A stretch of DNA of 32,988 nt from a virus: IMG/VR virus record IMGVR_UViG_3300036770_007938, positions 1 to 32,988 of that record, one strand, 5' to 3'. This document shows positions 9,171-32,935 of the stretch, one piece after another; position 1 is the stretch's first letter; the number at the start of each line of letters is the position of its first letter. The notes under the pieces are model-generated. The model made no database searches. It saw only the letters and a program-made list of their open reading frames with translations, and had not been told where the DNA came from. The position numbers were made by a program, and so were the translations under genes.

Positions 9171-10766
9171 ATGTCGCAGCTCGTGTCTATACATTCTTTG
9201 GATCTAGCGAAGTATCTAGAGTCTACCTTCGACTTCAAAACAGTTGGCGTTATAGATCTAGATTGGTTGAAATCTCAACCTCGAAAAACTTTGGTCGGGC
9301 TGTTAAAAAGCTGGTACAAAGAATCGTTTGATTCCAACGAAAGAATAGTGTTATTCAGTCGAGCCTCGATTTCAAGGGATCTTCTTAATCACCTGCAAAA
9401 ATGTGTCTGGCAAATAGATATTTCTAATTTTTTTATTTTGCTTTGCGCACCAAAAATTGACCATGAAGAGTTGGAATTGGCTAGATCTCTTCACAGCAGA
9501 GATAATCAAATTTTTTCGAATCTGGACATAAATTTCATCGACGAAGCTCAACCGTGTGATGTCAATGAGCTATTGAATTTACCAGAGTCTTTTTGTTATA
9601 GTCCATGGGCTCATCTTGAAATATCTTCCATTGGGGAATTCCGACCCTGCTGTGTATACAAAGAAGCGATCCGTAAGCCCGATGGTCAACCGTACAATAT
9701 AAATCAAGATACCATAGCAGATGTTTACACCAGTCAGTATCTGATTGATCTCCGAACACAATTTGTGAATGGTGAGAGGCCCGATGGTTGCACGAGCTGC
9801 TGGTACAAAGAGCAAACACACGGCGAGTCCAATCGCACCTGGTTTACCGATCATATTTCGTCGCACTTGGATTTGTTAGAAATTGAAAATGCCGAATTGA
9901 TTGATAACTTGATAAGTCTTGACATCAAGATGGGCAATCTTTGCAATTTCAAATGTCGCATATGCAATCCTTTTTCCAGTTCTCGTATCGCCGAAGAAAT
10001 GACAAAATATCGGCAGAAAACCATCGATTTAAAATCTTTAAATGCCAAAGGAAAATGGTCTGGCGATCATAAAATATGGCAGTCCTTTGAACTGTTAGCT
10101 CCTAATCTGGTAAACATAGATTTTTTCGGCGGTGAACCTTTTTTGATCAAGCAGCATGAATCTTTCATTGATTTTTTAATAGAGCGTAATTTTTCAAATA
10201 AAGTAAGACTGCACTACAATACCAATGGTTCTGTTTATCCTGAAAAATTATTTGCGAAATGGCAACAATTCCGAGAGATAGATATCGCCTTCAGCATAGA
10301 TAATATTGAAGATAGATTCCAATTAGAAAGGGGAGGTTCATGGAAAGAAATTGATAACAATCTAGATCGTTTTATCAGTCACAAACTGCCTAACATGATC
10401 TTGAGTGTTTTCACCACAGTCAATGTTCAAAACGTATTCTATCTCGGAGAACTGTTGCATTGGTTTGAAACCAAAAATCTAAATCGTCTTGTTTTCAACC
10501 TGCTGCAAACACCGGAGTTTATGAGCATAACCAGCATGAACACAGAATTGACCAAATTGGTCATTGATAAACTGAATCAAATTGACAAAAACAAATTGAT
10601 CAAGTATAATATAGTTCCAATCATTGAAATGCTAGAAAAAAATATTGGATCAAACAATCGTAACGTTGAGTTGGCAAATTTCATGAAGGAACTGGATACC
10701 ATAAGACATGAAGATTTATCTAAGACTCATCCCCAGATAGCTCAAATTATTTACAAAGGAAAGTAG
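9171..10766 (+). CDS. Radical SAM enzyme with N-terminal twitch/SPASM-like cysteine domain
   Basis: 531 aa. Radical SAM motif CxxxCxxC is Cys258-Cys262-Cys265 (CNFKCRIC), binding the 4Fe-4S cluster that cleaves SAM; GGEP near residue 320 is the SAM amino-group loop. Before the core lies an auxiliary cysteine set: Cys142, Cys160/161, and Cys207-x2-Cys210, with the pattern SPWAHLEISSIGEFRPCC resembling SPASM/twitch domains that hold a second cluster. Residues 1-130 are an extra alpha/beta domain I do not recognise. Such enzymes modify peptides or small molecules; the substrate is unknown. The gene is clearly AT-richer than gp32 and uvsX on either side, suggesting separate origin. It ends 2 nt before the uvsX ATG. 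Confidence 0.8.
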   Translation: MSQLVSIHSLDLAKYLESTFDFKTVGVIDLDWLKSQPRKTLVGLLKSWYKESFDSNERIVLFSRASISRDLLNHLQKCVWQIDISNFFILLCAPKIDHEELELARSLHSRDNQIFSNLDINFIDEAQPCDVNELLNLPESFCYSPWAHLEISSIGEFRPCCVYKEAIRKPDGQPYNINQDTIADVYTSQYLIDLRTQFVNGERPDGCTSCWYKEQTHGESNRTWFTDHISSHLDLLEIENAELIDNLISLDIKMGNLCNFKCRICNPFSSSRIAEEMTKYRQKTIDLKSLNAKGKWSGDHKIWQSFELLAPNLVNIDFFGGEPFLIKQHESFIDFLIERNFSNKVRLHYNTNGSVYPEKLFAKWQQFREIDIAFSIDNIEDRFQLERGGSWKEIDNNLDRFISHKLPNMILSVFTTVNVQNVFYLGELLHWFETKNLNRLVFNLLQTPEFMSITSMNTELTKLVIDKLNQIDKNKLIKYNIVPIIEMLEKNIGSNNRNVELANFMKELDTIRHEDLSKTHPQIAQIIYKGK

Positions 10767-11832: not shown

Positions 11833-12072
11833 ATGTCTGTTGATGTGGCCTATGATATATGGACCGAGTTACGTAGGTTTTTGAGCACGCCAGATCGAGC
11901 CGAGGCTGCTGATTTGTTAGTGAATGTCTTGATTGATAATGATTACAATGCCGAGGACATACGTTCCGCGTTCAAAGGCGATGCAGATGTGAAGCGAGCC
12001 TTGCAGAGTTATCTCGACGATGTTGAAGAAGATGACACCGAAGATGAATTTGAAGATCTTGAAGACGATTGA
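11833..12072 (+). CDS. Small acidic hypothetical protein downstream of uvsX
   Basis: 79 aa from ATG 11833, chosen because a strong Shine-Dalgarno GAGGAGGAAT lies directly upstream; a longer frame from 11728 would overlap uvsX. The N-terminal ~55 residues look helical (AYDIWTELRRFLSTPDRAEA, then LLVNVLIDNDYNAEDIRSAF) and the last ~20 are nearly all Asp/Glu. There is no known catalytic motif. The acidic tail could mimic DNA or contact UvsX or gp32, but that is speculation. The stop is followed 5 nt later by the second radical SAM gene. Confidence 0.65.
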   Translation: MSVDVAYDIWTELRRFLSTPDRAEAADLLVNVLIDNDYNAEDIRSAFKGDADVKRALQSYLDDVEEDDTEDEFEDLEDD

Positions 12073-12077
12073 AGTCA

Positions 12078-13346
12078 ATGGCTGATCAGAAGTTTTTTCC
12101 GATCAAACAAGGTGTGGCATGTCAATTGAAATGGACCTGGAATACCCTAAGATTAGCCGAAGCATCGTCGGCGGTATGCCATAGAGTTGCACCTGTCAAG
12201 CTGACTACTGAAAATTTTAATGATATCCATAATCATCCTACATGGGTACAGCATCGGGAATTACAAATGCAAGGTGTTTTCCCACAGCAAGGTTGCCAAT
12301 ACTGTGAACAAATCGAAAAAGCAGGAGGAGTCAGTGACAGGATCTTGCATCTGCAGGAACCAGACATGTATCCTGCAGAACTCGATGTAGATTCATTGGC
12401 TACCCATGTGACACCCCGCATATTAGAAGTTTTTATCAACAACCGATGCAATCTTGCCTGCATTTATTGCGATGAGTCAAACAGCACAAGGATTCTCAAA
12501 GAAAACACAAAGTTTGGATATGCTATCACAGGTATCAAAGACTCATCGCGCATGATTCCCAAACTTGAATTTGAAACAAATTATCAAGAATTGCTTGACA
12601 AATTTTTTGATTATCTCGATTCGAAGTATAACCAACTTCGAAAACTAAATGTGCTTGGCGGAGAACCATTCTATCAAAAAGAATTCTTTCGACTGGTAGA
12701 TTTTATTGCGTCAAAAAAAAATCCTGATCTAGAGTTTACTGTGGTGAGCAATCTCATGGTGTCAAGGTCGGTGCTTGAGGATTTTGTTGAAAAAATGAAA
12801 TGGTTACTGGCAAGAAAACACATCAAACGTCTGGATATCACTGCCAGTATCGATTGTCTAGGACCTGAACAGGAATATGTTAGGTATGGTATTGATTTGC
12901 AAAGATGGACTGATAATTTTGAATTCTTAGCTCAACACAAATGGATTTACATTAAAATAAACAATGTGATCACATCATTGACCTTGCGCACCCTGCCAGA
13001 TCTACTGACTTATATAAATGGCGTTAGAAAACACAGATCCATATTTCACGCTTTTGGATTAGTGGATGGCAGACCTCATTTACATCCTGAAATTTTTGGT
13101 CAAGGATATTTTAATGAATACCTTGATCATACAATCTCTCTCATGTCCAGATCTGACCGGTGGGAACAAACAAGTATTGCATATATGCAAGGAATCAAAT
13201 CCAGATTGAACCACGGTCATGAGAATCTGACAGAACAACGAAATCTCAAATTATACCTAGATGAGATAGATAGACGCAGAAAAACAGATTGGAAATCTAC
13301 CTTTAGATGGCTCGACAGTTATTTTAGGCAATGCAATGTGGTATAG
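12078..13346 (+). CDS. Second radical SAM enzyme with N-terminal auxiliary cysteine domain
   Basis: 422 aa from ATG 12078; an upstream TTG at 12069 is possible but weaker. The radical SAM motif is Cys124-x3-Cys128-x2-Cys131 (CNLACIYC), with GGEPF at 194-198. An auxiliary set Cys15, Cys34, Cys73-x2-Cys76 precedes the core, with nearly the same spacing as in the enzyme at 9171 (142/160/207/210), so the two share an architecture. The sequence is again AT-rich against its neighbours. It overlaps the next gene by 11 bases, so it is embedded in the recombination operon. Phage proteins of this type are often described as twitch-domain radical SAM proteins; the substrate is unknown. Confidence 0.8.
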   Translation: MADQKFFPIKQGVACQLKWTWNTLRLAEASSAVCHRVAPVKLTTENFNDIHNHPTWVQHRELQMQGVFPQQGCQYCEQIEKAGGVSDRILHLQEPDMYPAELDVDSLATHVTPRILEVFINNRCNLACIYCDESNSTRILKENTKFGYAITGIKDSSRMIPKLEFETNYQELLDKFFDYLDSKYNQLRKLNVLGGEPFYQKEFFRLVDFIASKKNPDLEFTVVSNLMVSRSVLEDFVEKMKWLLARKHIKRLDITASIDCLGPEQEYVRYGIDLQRWTDNFEFLAQHKWIYIKINNVITSLTLRTLPDLLTYINGVRKHRSIFHAFGLVDGRPHLHPEIFGQGYFNEYLDHTISLMSRSDRWEQTSIAYMQGIKSRLNHGHENLTEQRNLKLYLDEIDRRRKTDWKSTFRWLDSYFRQCNVV

Positions 13347-27760: not shown

Positions 27761-28780
27761 ATGACCCAAGTCGTGATCCGTAGCGGTGAATACCGTAAAC
27801 AAGATGTAAGTGGCATGAAGTTTACCTTGGTGCGGGATTTCCAGACCGACGCCCGAGGCGGCAACGTGGTGGTAAGTAATGATGGAGTTTTTCCTGGCAT
27901 GCCGGACCAGATCCGCATCCGTGTAGAATCCATCGATGACATCGAATTTACAGGAGACCGCTCAGTGAGCAAAGAAGATCGTGTGCTTGAATTCAAACGA
28001 CCCGAAGAAACCGACGAACAAGTCATGGATCGTATCGAGCAACGGTTCTCGATCCTGGACGACATGACCAAAGCAGCCATCGCCGGCGACATCCGTGCCA
28101 TGATCGTGGTTGGCCCTCCCGGAGTAGGCAAATCCTACGGCGTGGAGTATCAGTTGGAGAAGGCTGGTATGTTTGATCAGATCTCCAGCCGCAAGGTAAA
28201 GTATCAGGTAATCAAGGGTGCCATGACACCCATTGGCTTGTACTGTACCCTGTACAAAAATTCCGACCCGCAGAACGTGTTGGTGTTTGACGACTGTGAC
28301 TCGATCCTGCTGGACGATGTTGCCTTGAACATCCTCAAGGCAGCCTTGGACTCGGGCAAAAAGCGTCGCATCCACTGGAACGCCGATAGTTCCATGTTGC
28401 GCCGTGAAGGCGTGCCTGACGCGTTTGACTTCAAGGGCTCGGTGATCTTTATCACGAACTTGAAGTTTGATCACCTTAAATCGAAGAAACTGCAGGACCA
28501 CCTGGAAGCCCTGCAGAGTCGCTGCCACTTCCTGGACCTTACCCTGGACACCACGCGCGACAAGATCCTGCGCATCCGGCAGATCTTCCGCAAAGGGGAT
28601 CTGTTCCAGGACTATGATTTGACGCCGGAGCAGGGCGAAGAGATCGTGCAGTTCATGCAGGACAATCATGCACGGTTACGCGAGATCAGCCTGCGCATGG
28701 CGCTGAAGATCGCAGATCTCACCAAGATTGGTACCAACTGGCAGGCGCTGGCAGAGAGCACCTGCATGCGGCATGGTTAG
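27761..28780 (+). CDS. AAA+ ATPase
   Basis: 339 aa. Walker A GPPGVGKS (118-125), Walker B VLVFDDCD with Asp177/Asp178, sensor-1 Asn in VIFITNLKFD, and an arginine-finger-like LQSRCHFLDL. The first ~100 residues are a separate N-domain; the last ~60 form a helical lid (FMQDNHARLREISLRMALKIADL). The small C-terminal domain and ITN/SR pair are those of AAA+ machines such as clamp loaders, remodelers or helicase loaders. T4 gp44 has SRC in its arginine-finger motif too, but the extra N-domain and lack of a DEAD/E box differ from gp44, so I do not call it gp44. It lies on early promoter P2 and ends in tandem terminators. Confidence 0.75.
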   Translation: MTQVVIRSGEYRKQDVSGMKFTLVRDFQTDARGGNVVVSNDGVFPGMPDQIRIRVESIDDIEFTGDRSVSKEDRVLEFKRPEETDEQVMDRIEQRFSILDDMTKAAIAGDIRAMIVVGPPGVGKSYGVEYQLEKAGMFDQISSRKVKYQVIKGAMTPIGLYCTLYKNSDPQNVLVFDDCDSILLDDVALNILKAALDSGKKRRIHWNADSSMLRREGVPDAFDFKGSVIFITNLKFDHLKSKKLQDHLEALQSRCHFLDLTLDTTRDKILRIRQIFRKGDLFQDYDLTPEQGEEIVQFMQDNHARLREISLRMALKIADLTKIGTNWQALAESTCMRHG

Positions 28781-30890: not shown

Positions 30891-31330
30891 TGGAAAAACT
30901 TTCTATCCGGAACGAGATGCAGCAGTTCGATCGCAAGAATCGACGGTTCTACGACGATCTCACTGATGAAGAACGTAAAAAGTTTTCCAACTATCTCATG
31001 ATACGTTGGGGTTCCGCTGTGCGAGGTAGTCGCGAACTGCAAGAATTCTATGTGATAGCCACCAATGAGCGACTGAATCGACATTTCTTTGCAGTAAATC
31101 GTCATCCTCGCCTGCAATGGTTAATGGCCACCACAGTGAGTCCTTGCCTAGGCGCGCAAGACCATCCTTGGATCGCCCCCAAGAAAAAAGAAACTGGCAG
31201 CAACGAAGTGCGAAAGATGTTGTTGGAACTTTATCCTGCCATGAAGATTTCAGACATAGAAACCTTGGCCGCCCTGGTGGACCAGAAAGAACTGCGAGAA
31301 TATCTGCGTGAGCACGGCAGTACAGACTGA
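30890..31330 (+). CDS. Probable clamp-loader small subunit (gp62-like)
   Basis: 146 aa from GTG 30890, overlapping the upstream TAG by one base; a frame from 30824 would overlap it by 67 bases. The sequence FSNYLMIRWGSA, then ELQEFYVIATNERLNRHFFAVNRHPRLQWLM, then WIAPKKKETGSNEVRKMLLELY and LAALVDQKELREYL shows the order of marine gp62 proteins (helix, N-x-x-LNRHFF, H/P-x-LQ-x-x-x, basic loop, closing helices). T4 gp62 (187 aa) joins gp44 to load the sliding clamp gp45. The match is by eye. The gene overlaps the next one by 23 nt. Confidence 0.6.
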   Translation: MEKLSIRNEMQQFDRKNRRFYDDLTDEERKKFSNYLMIRWGSAVRGSRELQEFYVIATNERLNRHFFAVNRHPRLQWLMATTVSPCLGAQDHPWIAPKKKETGSNEVRKMLLELYPAMKISDIETLAALVDQKELREYLREHGSTD

Positions 31331-32006
31331 CGTTGGCTTCCAGTGCCAATATTGTGAACGATCATTCCGGCGAGAATCCAGTCTGGCTGTGCATCTCTGT
31401 GAAGCCAAACGGCGATACCAGGAGCGCGATGAAGTAGGTGTGCAACTGGGCATGCAGGCCTATCTGCGCTTTTATGAGATCACACAAGGATCAGCGCGGT
31501 TAAAAACATTTGATGATTTTGCGCGGTCTCCGTACTATCGTGCTTTCGTGAAATTTGGTCGTTACTGTGTGGCCATCCGGGCGGTGAACACAGATCGATT
31601 CATTGACTGGGTAGTACGACAAAATCGAAAGATAGACCACTGGTGCAGAGACAGTGTATACCTGGACTATCTCGTGGAGCACGTGCGATCGGAAGCTGCC
31701 ACAGATGCCTTGGGTCGCGCCTTGGAAACAGCCATAGACTGGGCCGAACAGACCGGCAATCCCGACCGAGATTATCTGCGCTACGGCAATGACAATGTGA
31801 TCTGTCATGCCGTGACTACAGGGCGCATCACGGCCTGGGTGCTGTACAACTCAGACAGTGGTATGGATTTCTTGGCGCGCATCAATACTGATCAGGTGGC
31901 CATGATCTGGAGCATGATCGATGCAGACTTCTGGCAGAGGCGGTTCCGAGATTATCCTGCTGACACCGAGTATGTGCGCGAGATGCTGCGGAAGGCAGGT
32001 TGGTGA
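31308..32006 (+). CDS. Zinc-finger-like hypothetical early protein
   Basis: 232 aa from GTG 31308 inside the end of gp62. Residues 13-31 hold Cys13-x2-Cys16-x12-His29-x-Cys31 in FQCQYCERSFRRESSLAVHL-C, a C2H2-like zinc finger with a shortened H-x-C end. The rest (YLRFYEITQGSARLKTFDDF, FVKFGRYCVAIRAVNTDRFIDWVV, DHWCRDSVYLDYLVEHV, then WSMIDADFWQRRF) is helical with conserved-looking Trp and His residues. No enzymatic motif is visible. The zinc finger suggests nucleic-acid or protein binding in replication. It overlaps the next gene by one base (TGATG). Confidence 0.65.
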   Translation: MSTAVQTDVGFQCQYCERSFRRESSLAVHLCEAKRRYQERDEVGVQLGMQAYLRFYEITQGSARLKTFDDFARSPYYRAFVKFGRYCVAIRAVNTDRFIDWVVRQNRKIDHWCRDSVYLDYLVEHVRSEAATDALGRALETAIDWAEQTGNPDRDYLRYGNDNVICHAVTTGRITAWVLYNSDSGMDFLARINTDQVAMIWSMIDADFWQRRFRDYPADTEYVREMLRKAGW

Positions 32007-32587
32007 TGAGCGCAGACATCGACATCGACCTCGCTGATCGCACCCAGATACTGGGCCTGATTGAACATGTGCCCGCACGCCAGATCACAGATGGCCAGGT
32101 CCGCCGACACAACAGCGGTGTGTATGTCACGGACATACCGCGTGATGCCGTGAATGTCTGTGCGGCCATCGATTATGAGTCAGCAGAATCCAGAGGCTAT
32201 TTCAAGATCGACCTGCTCAACATGTCGGTATATCAACTAGTGCAAAATCCCGAACACTACGAGACCATGCTGAACAGAGAACCGGACTGGCCACGACTAT
32301 GGCAGGATCCAGAATGGAGCCGCGGTCTGGTGCACGTTGGCAACTATACCGATCTCTTGTCACGCATGCGTCCCGACAGCATTGCCAGGATGGCCGCATT
32401 TATCTCCGTGATCCGGCCCGGCAAGGCACATCTGCAAGATCGTCCATGGTCAGAAGTTTTTGCGTCGGTGTGGGATGGCGATGACAGCCGGGGTTATGTG
32501 TTCAAGAAAGCACATGCCGTGGGCTATGCTGCCCTTGTGGCCCTGCACATGAACCTAATCAGTGATGTGACGCACCAGGGTGATTGA
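32006..32587 (+). CDS. DnaE-like mini polymerase-core protein
   Basis: 193 aa from ATG 32006 (TGATG overlap). In order, it carries motifs of the bacterial Pol III alpha (DnaE) palm and fingers: D-x-D-x-D at 4-8 (ADIDIDLADR; DnaE PDFDVDF), H-x-x-GV at 35-39 (RRHNSGVYV; DnaE HAGGVVI), K-x-D-L-L at 67-71 (YFKIDLLNMSVYQL; DnaE KFDFLGLRTL), RPGK at 137-140 (IARMAAFISVIRPGK; DnaE IALVALFRPGP), and FKKAH-x-x-GYA near 166-175 (DnaE GFNKSHSAAYA). DnaE itself is about 1160 aa. The DxD and the third Asp69 match the catalytic triad, so activity is not excluded. It may be a regulator or relic rather than a polymerase. Confidence 0.6.
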   Translation: MSADIDIDLADRTQILGLIEHVPARQITDGQVRRHNSGVYVTDIPRDAVNVCAAIDYESAESRGYFKIDLLNMSVYQLVQNPEHYETMLNREPDWPRLWQDPEWSRGLVHVGNYTDLLSRMRPDSIARMAAFISVIRPGKAHLQDRPWSEVFASVWDGDDSRGYVFKKAHAVGYAALVALHMNLISDVTHQGD

Positions 32588-32935
32588 TTTGCGCTTGGTT
32601 TTTTTGCGATTTATATCTGCGAGACTGCACACAGGACCATGTATGACTTCGAGATCACGATTGCTGAAGGTCCTTAGATAGGGACGGAACGGTAACCAAT
32701 CTCGTCCCAGGAATATGTTGATAGGTATGCTGCGATTGCTTTCCCACCACCATATCTGTGCCTGATCAATGAACTGACGTTTCAACGCAGGATCCTGGAT
32801 GGCGCCAAAATCATAGATCGTGGTCACGGCATCGTCGCGATTCTGTATGAGCCCGATGTATTCCACTCCTGAATACACACACAGAGTGATGAACGGATAC
32901 TGTTCTGTTAGTTTCGCAAAGACGTTTTCACCCAT
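32555..32935 (-). CDS. Hypothetical late protein, minus strand
   Basis: 126 aa. ENVFAKLTEQYPFITLCVYSGVEYIGLIQNRDD, then FIDQAQIWWWESNRSIPINIFL, then DLEVIHGPVCSLADI and a basic end RKKTKRKSITLV. I recall similar short proteins in other marine T4-like phages, without function. No catalytic motif, signal peptide or transmembrane segment. A TATAAATA late box lies on the minus strand at 32981-32974, upstream of ATG 32935. It overlaps the DnaE-like gene by 33 bp tail to tail. The alpha/beta composition and basic C-terminus suggest nucleic-acid or protein binding, no more. Confidence 0.6.
   Translation of the reverse strand: MGENVFAKLTEQYPFITLCVYSGVEYIGLIQNRDDAVTTIYDFGAIQDPALKRQFIDQAQIWWWESNRSIPINIFLGRDWLPFRPYLRTFSNRDLEVIHGPVCSLADINRKKTKRKSITLVRHITD

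Follow-up and report, generated by a model that had tools for sequence, protein, structure and literature searches.

C-family DNA polymerases are the replicases of bacteria and typically contain about 1000 amino acids or more. A far shorter candidate is encoded in the window analysed here, a 32,988-nucleotide genome fragment of an uncultured phage (IMG/VR record IMGVR_UViG_3300036770_007938), where a 193-aa protein carries, in the right order, five short motifs of the bacterial C-family enzyme DnaE (Pol III α). This raises the questions of whether the protein is a genuine DnaE homologue and of what it could do in a phage. The original prediction considered a lone C-family remnant beside a clamp-loader gene to be unusual in the T4-like lineage, which uses a B-family polymerase, and proposed either a regulator that mimics or poisons the host replicase or an accessory enzyme. 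Here, we favor, with a probability of roughly 70%, the interpretation that the protein is the C-terminal half (C-half) of a phage-specific minimal DnaE-type polymerase split over two genes, whose halves associate in trans.

Homology of the 193-aa protein to the DnaE palm and fingers

The protein is the product of an ORF running from ATG to TGA at positions 32006-32587 (+), and the translation contains all five predicted DnaE motifs at the expected residues:

32006..32587 (+): probable C-half of a minimal, split Pol III α, with Mg2+-binding palm strands and part of the fingers (phrog_11778, hhalign, AF2, Foldseek)
32015..32029 (+): D4-I-D6-I-D8, equivalent to E. coli D401/D403/D405 (invariant in 50/50 family members; columns invariant in DnaE)
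32108..32122 (+): H35-N-S-G38-V39, equivalent to E. coli H511-AGGV (family alignment, DnaE alignment, hhalign)
32204..32218 (+): K67-I-D69-L-L71, equivalent to E. coli K553/D555, with the third catalytic Asp (alignments, hhalign)
32414..32425 (+): R137-P-G-K140, equivalent to E. coli R639-P640-G641, in the fingers (family alignment, PDB profile search, hhalign)
32501..32530 (+): F166-K-K-A-H170-A-V-G-Y-A175, equivalent to E. coli F756-NKS-H760-SAAYA (family alignment, PDB profile search, global hhalign)

As a single sequence the protein was uninformative, with noise only in Pfam and no matches in a phmmer search of the PDB, and family profiles were therefore needed. Among PHROGs, it matched phrog_11778, annotated as "DNA polymerase", over residues 3-188 (E = 9.7e-54). 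A weaker match was to phrog_405, the profile of full-length phage Pol III α (1190 positions; E = 9.6e-6). An alignment of the C-half family was built with 50 members taken from the window and IMG/VR, 47 of which are matched by phrog_405. This alignment was compared via hhalign with a palm/fingers alignment of 12 DnaE sequences headed by that of E. coli (E. coli position = alignment number + 259), resulting in a probability of 96.3, an E-value of 1.9e-9 and a score of 71.5, whereas the reversed and 60 column-shuffled DnaE profiles scored at most 22.0. These controls rule out chance matching of the motifs; in global mode, the probability reached 98.2%. When searched against all PDB sequences, the family profile gave seven matches, all to DnaE and all colinear, with pieces including E. 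coli residues 402-422, 614-641 and 739-767; direct sequence matches to solved DnaE were weak (PDB, E = 0.03-0.08).

The predicted structure points to the same family. The best AlphaFold (AF2) model has a pLDDT of 91.2 and a pTM of 0.79, the remaining four being less confident (69-75). In a Foldseek search of the PDB, ranks 1 to 14 were all Pol III α (probability 0.72-1.00, TM 0.37-0.55 by query), before a drop in probability to 0.02 at rank 15, and, of the first 21 matches in viral models, those with a name were DNA polymerases, several of them labelled Pol III α. The protein hence displays the Pol-β-like palm fold of Pol III α. The profile comparison, whose match covers the motif region, and the structure prediction had both been proposed as checks of the original claim of C-family palm/fingers homology, and both bear it out: the protein is homologous to the palm and fingers of DnaE and the likeness is not a chance resemblance.

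Deleted segments and conserved residues

Bacterial DnaE1 (E. coli Pol III α, PDB 2hnh/5fkw) shares the fold of the C-half, with colinear palm and finger residues. Unlike DnaE1, the phage protein is devoid of PHP and thumb and of the clamp-, OB- and tau-binding parts, lacks ~97 finger residues and carries a palm that is divided between two genes. The hhalign and PDB alignments skip E. coli residues ~405 to ~511 and ~641 to ~739 and stop at ~777; the clamp- and tau-binding regions are gone because nothing past this last position is present. The first gap shortens the spacing from D8 to H35 to 26 residues, compared with 105 from D405 to H511 in E. coli, and the absent stretch is the thumb (thumb positions per PMC12641269). 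The second gap lies between RPGK and FKKxH. It leaves no counterpart to T680, Q687, E688 and R709 (E. coli numbering), all invariant in DnaE, and the DnaE finger block TYGxxxYQEQ...RRxxGKK is not intact; the absence of these invariant residues means that templated polymerisation might be lost. The GRGS nucleotide-binding motif, which is N-terminal to DxD in DnaE, is also absent and sits in the gene for the N-terminal half (N-half) described below.

Twenty-three columns are invariant in the 50-member C-half family, whose rows go down to 33% identity. D4, D6, D8, H35, G38, K67, D69, R137, P138, K140, F166, K167 and H170 are identical in 50/50 members, and in the 12-sequence alignment DnaE is invariant or nearly so at the equivalent places, namely D401, D403, D405, H511, K553, D555, R639-P640, F756 and H760. 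D401, D403 and D555 are the catalytic metal ligands and are absolutely conserved across the C-family (PMC3919608); their counterparts D4, D6 and D69, colinear with those of DnaE, are indeed kept, as the original prediction held. A fourth Asp, D405, is found in DnaE and replaced by Asn in PolC (PMC3919608). As its equivalent D8 is retained in all 50 members, the family is of the DnaE type and a PolC origin was rejected. Residues D11-R12, present in at least 90% of the family rows, align by eye with D431-R432 of Mycobacterium smegmatis DnaE1, which adjoin the template strand (PMC12641269). The dN/dS ratios of the C-half gene against two relatives were 0.04 and 0.12, with synonymous sites near saturation. 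Judging from these sequence comparisons, the C-half gene is under selection for its catalytic residues.

The partner gene, its distribution and its neighbourhood

Phages with the C-half carry a second gene, phrog_11127 (Pectobacterium phage CBB gp328 and relatives), which encodes the N-half, a protein of ~170 aa. The N-half matches Pfam DNA_pol3_alpha (E = 2e-8) and aligns with DnaE 318-393 by hhalign (96.3%; score 70 versus a null of at most 23). The GRGS(S) nucleotide-binding motif of the Pol-β-like palm is located within its last ~76 residues, and W-G-x-G-R-G-S is invariant in the N-half. The last residue of the N-half falls at E. coli DnaE ~393 and the C-half starts at ~398; the two positions abut, so that the break in the palm lies between GRGS and DxD and neither half overlaps the other. 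In the bacterial DnaE L186, residues 330-404 are matched by the N-half profile, and the C-half profile follows with residues 412-433, 547-645 and 735-767. The AF2 model of the N-half is poor at the C-terminal (GRGS) end and too weak there to judge the docking surface. The protein is consequently not a solitary remnant, as had been supposed: the front of the palm that it lacks is encoded by the co-occurring phrog_11127 gene, which was not seen in the 33-kb window, a genome fragment.

The phrog_11778 C-half family includes 63 phage records and is common to phages of many hosts. At least 594 relatives of the C-half were found in IMG/VR, the length of the family is nearly constant, and the closest copies from isolates are at most ~43% identical to the present one. 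A scan of a genome collection also returned one near full-length relative (43%) on a contig (L184) of a Pacearchaeota MAG, which is probably phage DNA misbinned with the archaeal MAG. In the listed phage records, each half occurs in 60, and 58 records have both. Among the four discordant records, Slicko01 (C-half only) and RAS14 (N-half only) turned out to carry both halves by profile search, and the remaining C-half-only record (Klebsiella phage, 109 kb) is probably partial. Both halves are present in 60 of the 61 assessable phage records (62 listed; the RAS14-like CM1 left out), as well as in all six large uncultured relatives (contigs G001, G004, G005, G009, G010 and G011).

The distance between the two genes amounts to 11 kb in Slicko01, ~31-44 kb in RaK2, CBB, 121Q and PA5oct, and 182 kb in Atu_ph07. 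No natural fusion or adjacency of the halves was found among the phage loci examined; both profiles met in one ORF only in full-length bacterial or plasmid DnaE. A B-family polymerase was detected in five of the six uncultured contigs and in both phages tested, Slicko01 and RAS14, in agreement with the expected T4-like lineage; none was seen in the window, a 33-kb genome fragment. A second, complete C-family polymerase was not found in the six uncultured contigs. The DNA_pol_B match of Slicko01 is split across two reading frames.

In the window, the C-half gene is preceded by phrog_11279, phrog_11758 and the zinc-finger gene phrog_11058, in this order. The closest neighbours and the orthologues of phrog_11758 are as follows:

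30917..31330 (+): phrog_11758, probable gp62-like clamp-loader small subunit, two genes upstream of the C-half (E = 2.4e-16)
31308..32006 (+): phrog_11058, C2H2-type zinc-finger protein, conserved upstream gene (orthologues precede the C-half in RaK2 and Atu_ph07)
32555..32935 (-): phrog_11637, convergent neighbour whose 3' end overlaps that of the polymerase gene (PHROGs)
L171:3083-3511 (-) and RAS14 193171-193614: phrog_11758 orthologues

The zinc-finger gene ends in a TGA that overlaps the ATG with which the polymerase gene starts (TGATG), and the convergent overlap with phrog_11637 also occurs in RaK2, Atu_ph07, Phosso and Slicko01. The C2H2-like zinc finger of phrog_11058 is N-terminal, and the gene is found near the C-half in several genera; its product could be a DNA-binding accessory subunit. 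The window also encodes a terminase, a gp32-like SSB, UvsX, UvsY, an AAA+ ATPase and UvsW. The AAA+ ATPase (phrog_1250, 27761-28780 (+), upstream of uvsW) shows weak similarity to clamp loaders. Two radical SAM proteins (9171-10766 and 12069-13346, both (+)) flank uvsX and, together with nearby methyltransferases, an epimerase and glycosyltransferases, may form a DNA or surface modification set.

The gp62-like clamp-loader subunit announced in the original prediction is plausible because of clamp-loader profile matches of phrog_11758, weak as they are (3e-4, and 5.6e-8 in RAS14). The Slicko01 orthologue matches clamp-loader phrog_225 and directly follows gp44, and from these sequence matches phrog_11758 is probably the small subunit gp62, reported as missing in the RaK2 and CBB papers. 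On the other side, the Pfam family Phage_clamp_A recovered no gp62 in the window.

The neighbours of the C-half in RaK2 and Atu_ph07 match those in the window. The order in Slicko01 is gp44 (RFC small subunit), phrog_11758, a zinc-finger-like gene, a small gene and the C-half. The N-half comes after UvsW and a phrog_11279-like gene in Slicko01, lies four genes before gp44 in CBB, and in RAS14 is followed after ~1.6 kb by a ~315-aa ORF and then by the gp62-like gene. In different genomes, both halves thus lie close to genes of the clamp loader, which links them to the replisome.

A split enzyme of this kind has been described before. In the available text of Iyer et al. 2021 (PMC7824862), a minimal Pol III α, characteristic of group 2.2 jumbo phages, consists of two proteins with distant genes, an N-terminal one that binds NTP and a C-terminal one that binds Mg2+ and the template; a B-family polymerase exists beside it, and the split enzyme is proposed to help one-strand synthesis or repair. 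The pair phrog_11778 + phrog_11127 corresponds to it by description, with a separate and distant N-half, a B-family polymerase and no other Pol III domains. The gene is therefore not unusual for this lineage, contrary to what its position beside the clamp loader had suggested, and the 193-aa protein adds to a known kind, since that text already predicted the enzyme. This kind now extends from the group 2.2 jumbo phages to a genome below jumbo size, that of the Alishewanella phage Slicko01 (141 kb, L187), in which each half lies within a replication or recombination cluster. "Truncated" Pol III α proteins have also been reported as CBB gp328 and Atu_ph07 gp316 (PMC5259590, PMC6102473). They belong to the same split system: gp328 of CBB is the N-half partner, its counterpart in Atu_ph07 is the N-half gene of that phage, and both carry the front of the palm, whereas the 193-aa protein carries its back; the available text of both papers mentions the N-half only. 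In a literature search that lacked many subscription papers, we found no experimental follow-up of the split Pol III α since 2021. New here are the controlled fold and profile tests, the residue-level conservation, the split point, the near-complete co-occurrence, the clamp-loader link and the sub-jumbo genome.

Possible roles of the two halves

We infer that the halves assemble physically, that the pair has DNA polymerase activity and that it serves a cellular role along the following lines. The partner phrog_11127 would be encoded elsewhere in the genome, outside the 33-kb fragment. The N-half would bind the nucleotide through GRGS, while the C-half would supply all three Mg2+-binding aspartates (D4, D6 and D69) with their K67/H35 surroundings, plus two finger pieces, and would hold part of the template grip. 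Meeting in trans, the two proteins would restore a single palm active site capable of DNA synthesis. The thumbless pair would then be an accessory to the phage B-family replicase. With neither thumb nor PHP domain, only part of the fingers and nothing beyond E. coli ~780, the putative enzyme would be expected to act distributively and to suit lagging-strand work, gap filling or repair rather than the task of main replicase. Most likely, the halves form a thumbless nucleotidyltransferase for replication or repair. The stronger statement, that two proteins of ~170-190 aa with genes tens of kb apart form a functional C-family polymerase sharing one active site, beside a B-family replicase and a T4-type clamp loader, is to our mind an even bet.

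The main rival, which we regard as unlikely, holds that the pair is a real nucleotidyltransferase that copies no template, e.g. one acting in DNA or RNA end addition or in RNA or protein modification. Pol-β-fold palms are widely re-used for other transfers, and this explanation would account for a pair devoid of the thumb and of the conserved finger block in phages that already own a B-family replicase. However, the finger elements RPxK and FKxxH are kept as invariant residues beyond a bare palm, and the genes are found among those for clamp loader, SSB, recombinase, primase and helicase, both of which argue against this rival.

Much less probable is the catalytically dead mimic that would poison or regulate the host replicase, as first suggested. 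Its appeal lies in the fragment-like size of the protein, about one sixth of DnaE length, and in the dominant-negative effects of mutant DnaE1 in mycobacteria (PMC12641269). Such a decoy is disfavoured because the catalytic Asp, Lys and His residues are strictly conserved in 50/50 diverse members, the dN/dS ratios are low (0.04-0.12) and the protein stops short of the clamp- and tau-binding regions that a decoy would use, with no regions beyond E. coli ~780; moreover, the same genomes encode a second half that holds the complementary active-site motif, and members of the family occur in phages of many hosts. Finally, the idea of a host dnaE that was captured and is now decaying, which the large deletions relative to DnaE might evoke, is hardly credible and is contradicted by the at least 594 IMG/VR relatives of nearly constant length, the same low dN/dS ratios and neighbours conserved across genera.

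If the split-polymerase interpretation is true, the pair would be the smallest C-family polymerase known to us. A two-gene version of about a third of the usual size would show the minimum required for a C-family catalytic core and would provide a small enzyme for mechanistic work. It would also bear on the origin of the C-family, which may have grown from small modules or, alternatively, may have been stripped down by phages.
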